From NCBI RefSeq assembly GCF_023115355.1, contig NZ_CP096019.1, forward strand, positions 1,178,001-1,242,000: a stretch of 64,000 nt of DNA, in the 5' to 3' direction. Positions 2,672 to 25,530 of the stretch are shown in pieces. The position numbers were made by a program, and so were the translations under genes. Position 1 is the stretch's first letter. Every line of letters starts with the position of its first letter. Source of the DNA: Halocatena salina (GTDB lineage: Archaea; Halobacteriota; Halobacteria; Halobacteriales; Haloarculaceae). Under the pieces are notes generated by a model that worked only from the letters and a program-made list of their open reading frames with translations, did no database searches and had not been told where the DNA came from.

Positions 2672-4099
2672 ATGGCACCGAACACGAACACGGAGATCAG
2701 TTCGTCGCCGATGGATCCGTTTACGCTCGCACTCAGTGCACAGCGTGAGCTTCTCACGGCAACGACGGAGCCGCTTTCGAAGTTTTCGGTCGCTCCGGAG
2801 CGCGCCGATCAGATGGCATCAGTCGAGGTGGGACAGACGCCGAGTGAAGTGGTGTACACGGAAAACAAACTCGAGCTGCTCCATTACGAGCCGCTGACCG
2901 AAGAGCAAAACGACGTTCCGATCCTCATCGTGTATGCGCTCATCAACAAACCGTTCATCCTCGATCTACAGCCCGATCGGAGTGTTATCCGACGTCTGTT
3001 AGAGGCGGGCCACGACGTGTACCTCATCGACTGGAACGAGCCATCTCGATTGGATTCGGTGCTCACGCTCGACGATTACGTCAATCGATACATCGCAAAC
3101 TGTGTCGATACGGTTCGTGAACGCTCCGGACAGGAGTCGATCAACGTGCTCGGGTACTGCATGGGCGGCACGATGGCCACGATGTACACCGCGATCAATC
3201 CCGATTCGGTCAACGCGCTCGGGCTGATGGCGGCCGGGCTTTGCTTCGACGACACCGGTGGCGTTCTCGAACAGTGGGGCGACGAGGAGTACTACGATCC
3301 GAGCGACGTCACCGAGGCGTACGGGAATGTTCCCGCGGAGATGCTCGATGTCGGGTTCGCGCTGATGGATCCCATTTCGAACTTCGTCAGCAAGTATCTC
3401 CGGCTGTACGATAACCTCGAAAACGAGGACTTCGTGGAGAACTTCGCTCGCATGGAACGGTGGCTATCCGAAGGGATCGACGTCCCGGGCACGACGTACG
3501 TTCAGTTTCTAGAAGACATCTATCAGGACAACAAACTGTACGAAAACGAACTCGTCATCGGGGACGAAAAGGTCGATCTCGCAGAAATCGATATGCCGGT
3601 GCTCCAGATCATCGGGGAGTACGATCACCTCGTGCCCGCGTCGGCGTCGACGCCGTTCAACGACGTGATCGCCAGCGATGACGTGTCCGTGATCGAGTCA
3701 CCAACTGGCCACATCGGTCTGTCCGTCTCGGGAAGCGCCCACGAGGCGGTCTGGCCCGACGTGAGCCAGTGGTTTCATGACAGATCAGAACGAGAATCCG
3801 AACCCGAGGACGCCACGGTCGAGGCGGATAAAAAGAAGCCGGAGGAGGAGACGCCAGAGCGGGACGACGCCGCAATCTCGATCGACGTCGAAGCGGAAAG
3901 TGAGAAGGATGACGAAGCCGCCGACGAAACCGACGATGTCCAATCGATCGAGGGAATCGGCGGGACCTACGCGTCACGCCTTCAGGAGGCCGGGATCGAA
4001 ACGATCGACGATCTCAAAGCTGCGGACGTAGAAACCGCTGCCGAGGCTGCACAGGTCAGCGCCTCGCGGATCGAGCGCTGGCTCGATTCGATCGACTGA
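2672..4099 (+). CDS. phaC: PHA synthase catalytic subunit PhaC, class III, with C-terminal HhH extension
   Basis: A 475-residue alpha/beta-hydrolase that polymerises (R)-3-hydroxyacyl-CoA into PHA on granules. The lipase-like box is GYCMGG with nucleophile Cys163; Asp318 (GEYDHLVP) and His347 (SPTGHIGL) complete the triad. After residue ~370 comes an acidic linker, then at 424-475 a helix-hairpin-helix-like module ([18 protein letters not shown] ... [10 protein letters not shown]) of the kind seen in nucleic-acid-binding proteins. Haloarchaeal PhaC proteins are known to carry a C-terminal extension needed for activity, and 475 residues is usual for them. The gene follows phaE after 4 bp. Confidence 0.95.
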
Positions 4100-4211: not shown

Positions 4212-4952
4212 ATGTTCGCGGACAAGACGTGTGTCGTTACCGGTGCATCGAGAGGAATCGGACGTGGAATCGCCGAGGAGTTGGGACACAATGGTGCGAA
4301 CGTCGTCGTAAACTACCGGACATCGGAAGGGGCCGCACACGAGGTCGTCGACACGATCGAGGACGCAGGAGCGAACGCGATCGCGTGTCGGGCGAACGTT
4401 GGGAAGTACGACGCGGTGGCGTCGATGTGTGATCGAATCCATGATGCGTTCGGAGCGGTCGACGTGTTAGTGAACAACGCCGGGATCACGATCGATCGGA
4501 CGTTCGAAAACATGACGCCAGCAGAATGGAAGTCGGTATTGGCAGTGAACCTCACTGGCGTGTTCAACTGCACTCACTGTCTGTTCGAGGATCTCCGCCG
4601 GGCGGACGACGGGCGGTTGATCAATGTCTCATCGGTGGTCGGACAACAGGGCAACCACGGACAGGCCAACTACGCCACGACCAAAAGCGGACTGTTCGGA
4701 TTCACGCGCACGCTCGCCTTGGAGATGGCTGAATCCGGTTCGACGGCCAACTGTGTCGCACCGGGGTTCGTCAAAACGGACATGCTCGAAACGGTACCCG
4801 ACCGCGTCAAAACGCATCTTCGAGAACGGATTCCCCTCGATCGGTTCGCCGAGGTCGAAGACGTCACTGGTATCGTTCGCTTCCTCGCAAGTCCAGAATC
4901 GAGATACATGACCGGGCAGGTTATCGGCGTCAACGGCGGGATGGAGTGGTGA
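4212..4952 (+). CDS. phaB: Acetoacetyl-CoA / 3-oxoacyl reductase, SDR family (PhaB type)
   Basis: A 246-residue short-chain dehydrogenase. The nucleotide-binding motif is TGASRGIG at 10-17, NNAG at 88-91, and the catalytic residues are Ser140/141, Tyr154 and Lys158 (YATTK). The end (YMTGQVIGVNGGMEW) is typical of FabG/PhaB. Following phaC, the likely reaction is NADPH-dependent reduction of acetoacetyl-CoA or 3-oxovaleryl-CoA to the (R)-3-hydroxyacyl-CoA used by PhaC. Sequence alone cannot exclude a FabG-like role, so the symbol is an inference from context. Confidence 0.8.
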   Translation: MFADKTCVVTGASRGIGRGIAEELGHNGANVVVNYRTSEGAAHEVVDTIEDAGANAIACRANVGKYDAVASMCDRIHDAFGAVDVLVNNAGITIDRTFENMTPAEWKSVLAVNLTGVFNCTHCLFEDLRRADDGRLINVSSVVGQQGNHGQANYATTKSGLFGFTRTLALEMAESGSTANCVAPGFVKTDMLETVPDRVKTHLRERIPLDRFAEVEDVTGIVRFLASPESRYMTGQVIGVNGGMEW

Positions 4953-22523: not shown

Positions 22524-23972
22524 TCACTCCGCTGTCGATGTGTGGATCGACTCACCACGGTGGAGGCGATCAGCGATCGTGTACGTCTGTTCGGCTTCGC
22601 GGCGCGTCGGGAAGTGGGCGGCCATATACCGAGCGGTCGCCATGAGCGCCACGCGTCGGTCACCGTCGCAGTCAGCTCGGTCGAACTGTGCAAACGCGGC
22701 CTCGACGTTTTGGAGCGTGTGGAAGTTCGCGTCTTCGCCCAACAGCCCCGTTCCCAGCGTCCGTTTGAGTGCTGCTGGATCACCACCCGCGTCGAAATGC
22801 TCATTTACCAGCCGTGTAGCGCGGTCGACCTCTCCCTGTTCGTCGAACGTTTCAAGCAGTGTCTCCCGAATCTCGGCCGGATCTCGGTCAGAGGCAACCG
22901 GCTCAGGGATCGGGGCGGGGGGCGTGTTGAGAAATCGATCGAGATAAACGCTCATCGCGGCGTCGATACAGCCACGATACACCTCGATCGCGTCGGTTCG
23001 TCGGGCCATGCCGTGAACGGCGTTCGCGTAGGAAAACGTGTGATGAACGGTGTTCCAGTCCGAGAACTCGTTGCTGGTCGAAAACTGCACGATCCGGCGG
23101 GCGGCGGCAGTGGTAACCGCGTGGGCGAGCTGTTCGTGCGTCGCTCCTGTGCGGATGGCGTCGGTGAGCGCCTCCGTGATCGCGTGGGGATCGTCCCCAA
23201 GTAGCGTTTCGATGAATCCCGCTGGGCGCTCCCACGTTCGACCCTCGCCCGCGGCGACCAGTTCCGACAGCCGATCATCGGCGTCGAAACACAATTGAGC
23301 CACGTCGATCGGTTGGCGCCACGCCGAGCGTTCCTCACTCCGACTCGCGTCCGTAATCTGCTGGACCGTCGCTGCGAGGATCGAATCGGCGTGCTCCCAC
23401 CCGAGATGGTCGACCATTTCGAACGCTTTGTTGATGAAATCGAGCGTATGACCCGTGTTCATGTACAAGTGATCGGTGGCAGCAGCGGCCAGTATCCCCG
23501 CGACCTGCGGCGGAGCGAGGTTCTCGACAGCAGTGAGCAAACACCGTTCGGCCCCGTCAGTGTCGCGTACTTCACACGTCTCCCGAAACCACGACTTCAA
23601 CCGGTCGTAGCCCAACGATCGATTCGCAAACTGATACTGGCTGAACCGTGGCGGCTCGTCCGCACAGTCGTCGGCGACGTATCGAACGCCGGTGTACAGC
23701 GCGCGGGTCCGATCGGCAACCGAGAGATCGTCGTAGACGTTCGCCATCGCAGCCAACACTGTCAATCCTGACCCCCACCCCATATCACGGTAGTTCGTTC
23801 CGAAGTTCACCGCAGTCTCGATAGGGGTGTAAAACCCCTCATTCTCGGCATCGAGTCCGATGACCGCCTTCGCCATGACGAGCGGAAGGTTCTCTTGAAG
23901 ACCGTCCGCGAGCCGGTTACGCCAGTAGATCGATTCGGAAACGGTTCGTTCGGGATCCGGGTCCAGATACAC
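22524..23972 (-). CDS. C-terminal helical part of an interrupted Rieske fusion protein
   Basis: The frame codes 482 helical residues from a GTG at 23972. It has no membrane span or Tat signal. Blocks such as NTGHTLDFINKAFEMVDH and LGWEHADSILAATVQQ look like a conserved alpha-helical domain of unknown function found behind Rieske domains. The frame is the same as that of the Rieske ORF upstream: only one TGA (24018-24020) separates them, with ADDVQTYPVELREDG between that stop and the GTG. I therefore read both as one original gene. Whether this part is still translated alone is unknown. Confidence 0.6.
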   Translation of the reverse strand: MYLDPDPERTVSESIYWRNRLADGLQENLPLVMAKAVIGLDAENEGFYTPIETAVNFGTNYRDMGWGSGLTVLAAMANVYDDLSVADRTRALYTGVRYVADDCADEPPRFSQYQFANRSLGYDRLKSWFRETCEVRDTDGAERCLLTAVENLAPPQVAGILAAAATDHLYMNTGHTLDFINKAFEMVDHLGWEHADSILAATVQQITDASRSEERSAWRQPIDVAQLCFDADDRLSELVAAGEGRTWERPAGFIETLLGDDPHAITEALTDAIRTGATHEQLAHAVTTAAARRIVQFSTSNEFSDWNTVHHTFSYANAVHGMARRTDAIEVYRGCIDAAMSVYLDRFLNTPPAPIPEPVASDRDPAEIRETLLETFDEQGEVDRATRLVNEHFDAGGDPAALKRTLGTGLLGEDANFHTLQNVEAAFAQFDRADCDGDRRVALMATARYMAAHFPTRREAEQTYTIADRLHRGESIHTSTAE

Positions 23973-24017
23973 GCCGTCCTCGCGTAGTTCGACCGGATAC
24001 GTCTGGACGTCGTCCGC

Positions 24018-24269
24018 TCAGATGTCGAACGTATCTCCCTCCGCGAGTTCGAACCGGGCGTGGTGCCAGTGACACGTCAGTATCCCGTCGTCGATCGTAC
24101 CCTGTGAGAGAGGAAATCCCATGTGGGGACACCGGTTATCGACCGCGTACGCCGTTCCATCGCGATGAAAAAGCGCGATCGCTCGCCCCGGATTGACGAC
24201 CATCTGCCCGTCGGCCACGAGCGTCGACCGATCGGCGACCCGGACGAACGCTGATTCATCATCATTCAT
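24018..24269 (-). CDS. Rieske [2Fe-2S] domain, ended early by an in-frame TGA
   Basis: An 83-residue Rieske ferredoxin domain starting MNDDESAFVRVAD. Cluster ligands are Cys47 and His49 (NRCPHMG) and Cys66 and His69 (TCHWHHARF). It ends ...GDTFDI then TGA, where related sequences have Trp (FDIWADDV), and the same frame continues into the helical domain. A TGG to TGA change is the simplest cause. A longer start at 24374 is open, but its residues look non-coding. Divergent from dnaJ. Confidence 0.7.
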   Translation of the reverse strand: MNDDESAFVRVADRSTLVADGQMVVNPGRAIALFHRDGTAYAVDNRCPHMGFPLSQGTIDDGILTCHWHHARFELAEGDTFDI

Positions 24270-24387: not shown

Positions 24388-25530
24388 ATGAGCGACGATT
24401 TTTATGACGTACTTGGCGTCTCTCGTGATGCAAGCGAGGACGAGATCAAATCGGCGTACCGGAAGAAGGCTGCGGAGTATCATCCGGACGTGAGCGACGA
24501 TCCCAACGCAGAAGAGAAGTTCAAGCAGGTCAAGAAGGCCAAGGAGGTGCTCACCGATGATCAGGCCCGCCAAGCGTACGACCAGATGGGCCACGAGCGC
24601 TTCGAGCAAGCGGAAAAACGCGGTGGGTTCGACGGCGGGCCCGGAGCGGGTGCGGGCGGGGATCCGTTCGGTGGTGTCGGTGGGGACAGCCCATTCGGAG
24701 ACATTTTCGATCAGTTTTTTGGCGGTGGAAACGGTCGTCGCAGCGGTGCGCGTCCGGGTCGTGATCTCCAGACCCGGCTGCGGATCGATCTCGAAGACGC
24801 CTATCACGGCGTCGAAAAACGGATGACAGTCAACCGGCCCGAACAGTGTGACGAATGTGACGGGACGGGACATCCACCGGACGCGGAATCTCGGACCTGC
24901 TCGGTGTGTAACGGCAGGGGGCAACGAACTACCGTTCAGCAAACGCCGCTCGGACGAGTCCAGCAAACACAGACGTGCCGGGAGTGTGAAGGGACCGGCA
25001 CGGTTTACACGGCAAGCTGTTCGACGTGTGATGGCGACGGACAGGTCGTCAATGAAACGACGCTCACGGTCGACGTTCCAGCCGGGATCAGCGACGGACA
25101 GACGCTCCGATTGGAGCGCGAGGGCGCACCAAGCGAGAGCGGCGGCCCGAACGGCGATCTACTCGTCGAGATCGCCGTTGAATCGCATCCCGACTTCGAA
25201 CGCGACGGCAACGATCTCGTCCATCGACTTGCAGTGTCGTTCCCGCAGGTGGTGTTCGGTGATGAGGTCGAAGTGCCGACGATTGACGGGGCCGCATCCT
25301 TCGAAATCCCGTCTGGAACGCAAAGCGGCGAACGGTTCCGGCTACAAGGGAAAGGGATGCCTCGATTGCAACGCCGGGGGCAGGGCGATCTCTACGTGTA
25401 CGTGCAGGTCGTCACGCCCGAGAGCATGAACGAAGAGCAGCGTGAGGCGCTACGGGCGTTCGCCGAAGCTGGTGGCGAGGAGATCGACGTGAGCCAAGGA
25501 TTCTTCGAGAAGCTCAAACATTCGTTGTGA
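24388..25530 (+). CDS. dnaJ: Chaperone DnaJ
   Basis: A 380-residue full-length DnaJ. J domain with HPD at 32-34, a Gly/Phe-rich linker (about 75-125), four zinc-binding CxxCxGxG repeats (CDECDGTG, CSVCNGRG, CRECEGTG, CSTCDGDG) and a C-terminal substrate-binding domain. It activates the ATPase of DnaK. No dnaK or grpE lies on either side in this window, while many haloarchaea have them close by. Confidence 0.95.
   Translation: MSDDFYDVLGVSRDASEDEIKSAYRKKAAEYHPDVSDDPNAEEKFKQVKKAKEVLTDDQARQAYDQMGHERFEQAEKRGGFDGGPGAGAGGDPFGGVGGDSPFGDIFDQFFGGGNGRRSGARPGRDLQTRLRIDLEDAYHGVEKRMTVNRPEQCDECDGTGHPPDAESRTCSVCNGRGQRTTVQQTPLGRVQQTQTCRECEGTGTVYTASCSTCDGDGQVVNETTLTVDVPAGISDGQTLRLEREGAPSESGGPNGDLLVEIAVESHPDFERDGNDLVHRLAVSFPQVVFGDEVEVPTIDGAASFEIPSGTQSGERFRLQGKGMPRLQRRGQGDLYVYVQVVTPESMNEEQREALRAFAEAGGEEIDVSQGFFEKLKHSL

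Follow-up and report, generated by a model that had tools for sequence, protein, structure and literature searches.

In the haloarchaeon Halocatena salina, an open reading frame (ORF) for a Rieske protein and another for a large helical protein follow each other with a single TGA between them. We asked whether this stop marks a broken fusion gene, an error in the sequence, a codon that is read through or the border between two genuine genes. The locus lies in a 64,000-nucleotide stretch of contig NZ_CP096019.1 (assembly GCF_023115355.1, positions 1,178,001 to 1,242,000), which we call the window and to which all coordinates refer. The original prediction held that the two ORFs are in frame with only the TGA between them, that Trp is expected at the stop (FDI-W-ADDV), and that the joined protein would have about 580 residues, with a Rieske domain ahead of a large helical domain; all three points were borne out. 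Both the Rieske ORF and the 482-aa ORF lie on the minus strand in a single frame, which runs from ATG 24269 to TGA 22524 and is open but for the TGA at 24018–24020, in the protein context GDTFDI-stop-ADDVQT. Although the ORF lister placed the start of the Rieske ORF at TTG 24374, homologue starts fall near ATG 24269–24267, so that the 5′ part comprises 83 codons, the TGA occupies the position of residue 84 and the Rieske–helical protein has 581 residues if the TGA is read through (Table 1). The gene occurs once in its own genome, and a whole-genome search found no second full-length copy.

Table 1. Coordinates of the interrupted Rieske–helical gene in the window
Feature	Position	Strand	Description
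5′ part of the gene	24021–24269	−	83 codons from ATG; carries both cluster-binding motifs, C47-P-H49 and C66-H-W-H69; final strands of the Rieske fold missing
In-frame TGA	24018–24020	−	Residue 84; Trp in 102/109 and Phe in 6/109 aligned sequences; TGG in the closest relative
Remainder of the frame	22524–24017	−	End of the Rieske domain (residues 85–103) and all-helical domain (about 110–571); terminal TGA at 22524–22526
482-aa ORF	22524–23972	−	Possible start GTG 23972–23970 (residue 100), at the domain border; separate translation is a candidate only
Codon 511	22737–22739	−	Gly in the window copy; Arg in 105/109 sequences, including all 11 bacterial ones

Fusion is the norm among the relatives of this gene. 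The gene is fused in all 108 homologues outside the window, which come from haloarchaea and from four bacterial phyla. Residues 1–581 of the window copy, with the TGA read through, are collinear with them and have the same layout, a Rieske domain at the N terminus and ~470 aa of helical domain at the C terminus. Because the full-length homologues span both halves (54–94% identity in haloarchaea and 41–45% in bacteria), the arrangement is not a product of chance. About sixty of the 146 genomes in the window's taxonomic family have a full-length or near full-length homologue in one frame. The genome collection yielded 61 further loci (60 in haloarchaea, the other in a Trueperaceae bacterium), three of 111 Deinococcota genomes carry a homologue, and plasmid records add others from Paraburkholderia, Microvirga, Sinorhizobium, cyanobacteria, Priestia and Metabacillus. 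At residue 84, the 109 distinct aligned sequences have Trp in 102 cases, Phe in six and a stop in the window alone; the window copy therefore lacks both the Trp or Phe that precedes ADDV and an uninterrupted frame, and is a disrupted member of the family. Homologues that stop after the Rieske domain, with a separate helical gene, had been named in advance as the observation that would overturn this interpretation. We looked for them and found no naturally separate Rieske and helical genes among the 108 homologues examined, and a split ancestral state was rejected accordingly.

The nearest named relatives of the window copy are those of Halocatena pleomorpha (94% identical, with TGG at the stop site), 'Halobacteriales archaeon YIM A00010' (85%) and Halocatena marina (79%). 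The H. pleomorpha region is syntenic with that of the window and 87% identical in DNA over 4.6 kb. The 'Rieske (2Fe-2S) protein' family of ~580–595 aa (from Halorussus, Haladaptatus, Paraburkholderia, Microvirga, Nostoc/Aulosira/Gloeothece, Priestia and Metabacillus) has the same length and domain order and shares the cluster motifs, the FD-x-W/F-ADD motif and the helical-domain His residues; the window copy differs from it in the stop at residue 84 and in two unusual residues, H36R and R511G. The chromosome of Haladaptatus pallidirubidus (NZ_CP085301.1) holds two gene copies of equal length, ~550 kb apart (loci L110 and L112).

Residues 20–91 of the read-through protein match the Pfam Rieske family PF00355 (E = 5e-14), and the cluster ligands C47, H49, C66 and H69 (CxH...CxxH) are present in all 109 sequences, including the window copy. 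Residues 1–103 resemble the Rieske-type ferredoxins of aromatic dioxygenase systems (5bok, 2qpz; PF00355) both in sequence (E = 5e-8) and in fold (TM 0.88 normalised to 5bok), but those ferredoxins are separate electron carriers of ~105 aa, whereas in this family the domain is fused to the helical part. An AlphaFold2 model of the read-through protein (pLDDT 87, pTM 0.88) places strands at residues 93–96 and 99–102, beyond the stop. Modelled alone, the helical domain is all-helical (pLDDT 90.6, pTM 0.91); it matched no family in Pfam or NCBIfam, and Pfam matches to MgsA_C and CMD were at chance level and were discarded. Across the 109 sequences, His 274, 410 and 517 of this domain are invariant, as are K134, D277, E313, D404, Y442, E512 and Y548, and His 552 is found in 107. 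Three of the His residues begin similar motifs (HTLDFxNKAF, HTFxYANA and HTLQNxEAAF), and these look like the units of an internal repeat, with a single His in each.

Could the two parts still act as two polypeptides? A truncated Rieske protein might cooperate with a helical protein whose translation starts anew at GTG 23972, 15 codons past the stop, and the position of this codon at the domain border, a GAGG five bases upstream and the low dN/dS of the part beyond the stop (0.07 against H. pleomorpha) would all fit such an arrangement. The low ratio, however, mostly reflects evolution that preceded the stop, none of the homologues is divided at residue 84, and the truncated Rieske part would be without the conserved ADDV stretch and two strands. 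We consider this reading very unlikely.

The least probable of the accounts considered is read-through of the UGA, with Trp or another residue inserted and full-length protein still made at some level. The residue expected at this site is indeed Trp, which is the usual near-cognate reading of UGA, and the frame past the stop is well conserved. However, among the 43 tRNA genes found, all assigned by ARAGORN (two of them after introns were allowed), none has a UCA anticodon; this list is incomplete, as the tRNA-Trp was not recovered, presumably owing to the long intron that this gene has in haloarchaea. Nor did the genome yield the tRNA-Sec expected with a selenoprotein: no match to RF01852 exceeded the cut-off, and those below it were ordinary tRNA-Arg and tRNA-Ser genes. 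Stop-codon reassignment or suppression was rejected on these tRNA results. The read-through cases covered in a review of recoding in archaea are those of Sec and Pyl (PMC8211752). If selection maintained a recoding site here, moreover, relatives should show it as well, and the stop is conserved in none of them.

The age of the break was estimated from substitution counts. Between the window gene and that of H. pleomorpha, dS is 0.38 and dN is 0.03. With changes polarised by two outgroups, the window branch has gained 14 missense and 26 silent changes since the split from H. pleomorpha, compared with 15 missense and 27 silent changes on the intact sister branch. Under neutrality, ~80 missense changes would be expected on the window branch, and the 14 observed reject an old pseudogene. 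An unconstrained share of the branch of at least 20% is unlikely (P = 0.003) and one of 10% is borderline (P = 0.07). Because the ratio of missense to silent changes resembles that of the intact branch, any loss of constraint falls within roughly the final 10% of the time since the split, if it happened at all. The substitution counts fit three cases equally: a young stop, an error in the sequence and a protein that is still functional. Two of the few derived changes in the window copy, H36R and R511G, affect strongly conserved residues and may give a weak hint of decay; R511 and H36 vary in a few other homologues too. A set of three altered invariant positions (H36R, T285M and R511G) was reduced when more sequences were added, position 285 being variable.

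The main rival to a real mutation is a sequencing or assembly error in an intact gene, which we regard as unlikely but of more weight than re-initiation or read-through. No part of the frame shows relaxed constraint, one base only separates the window sequence from an open frame, and the closest relative, H. pleomorpha, has TGG at the site. These points would suit an error, but the change that creates the stop (TGG to TGA) is not an indel; it is a G>A substitution, and natural changes on the window branch are most often of this kind, with G>A and C>T together making up 24 of the 41 that were polarised. Nor does the rest of the window hold a comparable interruption in flanking genes with close homologues (dnaJ, an acyl-CoA synthetase-like gene and others), the stops listed for these genes falling, in our reading, in antisense or over-extended frames. 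The assembly itself, with five contigs for 4.0 Mb and the gene on a contig of 2.5 Mb, also counts against an error.

The explanation that we favour, with a probability of about two in three, is that an intact Rieske–helical fusion gene was very recently inactivated by a single G>A that turned Trp codon 84 into TGA. The mutation would then be real rather than a base-calling error, and the 83-residue product would probably be non-functional, being without the conserved W/F-A-D-D-V stretch and the last Rieske strands. Fresh inactivation, sequencing error and read-through had been put forward together in the original prediction. The first is now favoured by the single G>A, the lack of a missense excess and the independent lesions in other copies, and the third is disfavoured by the lack of a UCA-anticodon tRNA and of tRNA-Sec; the second keeps its place as the main rival.

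The gene is probably an accessory one, easily lost from individual lineages. Within the taxonomic family, a match of any kind turned up in only 46 of 96 good genomes, and in some of these it covers the Rieske part alone. A copy 65% identical to that of the window (locus L020, genome G092) has an independent in-frame TGA at ORF codon 440, which corresponds to query residue 435. Another (L047, genome G057, an incomplete draft of metagenomic quality) has a frameshift between the Rieske and helical parts, at about 4420–4440, with an in-frame stop shortly after. Two further loci are remnants in which the two ends are kept and ~430–460 middle codons are deleted (L046 in genome G011, 3004–3428; L049 in genome G124, 3004–3314). 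Absences and independent lesions together form the pattern of an accessory gene. In Natronococcus sp. A-GB1 (L083), H552Y and D322N replace one of the four conserved His residues and a further residue, and to judge from these changes the copy is possibly inactive.

In part of the haloarchaea, the gene sits in a dnaK–dnaJ neighbourhood: dnaJ adjoins it in 13 loci and dnaK in nine (24388–25530 in the window; L063 and similar loci). Neighbours vary between lineages, and gene context yielded no clue to function. Alpha/beta hydrolases lie near five bacterial copies and are not mutually homologous at E = 1e-3, except for those of Priestia and Metabacillus.

What might the intact protein do? When the helical domain was searched against the PDB with Foldseek, a single candidate stood out from noise: 8yxs, a non-heme iron dioxygenase from a fungus (probability 0.99, E = 0.0096). 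The match extends over the whole length, but TM is only 0.34–0.36 and identity 11%, and 8yxs is a chain of 446 residues with no room for a Rieske domain. We take 8yxs to be possibly an anthraquinone ring-cleaving enzyme of the questin-oxidase type; a fungal anthraquinone-cleaving dioxygenase of this type binds iron at a site with several His residues. Such ring-cleaving dioxygenases are described in a 2022 review, which, however, calls GedK cofactor-free (PMC9890505). Searches for the questin oxidase-like profile PF14027 found nothing in 43 members (E cut-off 1), in 10 bacterial members (cut-off 5) or in A3 (cut-off 10), and the lead towards questin oxidase is weak, resting as it does on the single fold match to 8yxs.

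A tentative possibility is that the helical domain acts as an oxygenase with a non-heme metal and is supplied with electrons by the Rieske domain fused to it, which would make the family a self-sufficient enzyme class spread across haloarchaea and several bacterial phyla. In such a protein, the Rieske cluster would pass electrons to a putative metal site in the helical domain, formed, to judge from conservation, by H274, H410, H517 and H552 and perhaps K134, and the intact enzyme may act as an oxygenase or oxidase on a small organic molecule. The putative four-His (plus Lys) site would differ from the 2-His-carboxylate site found in classical Rieske oxygenases. We found no description of a Rieske–helical fusion in the literature searched.

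As an event, the stop is ordinary: one recent nonsense mutation, or an error, in an accessory gene. If it is real, the window strain is a natural null beside a close relative with an intact copy and, should the oxygenase reading hold, a natural knockout of such an enzyme. The family is of more interest than the stop itself. The locus points to a conserved and widespread Rieske–helical family without an assigned function, for which the conserved residues and the weak fold match suggest an enzymatic role that can be tested.
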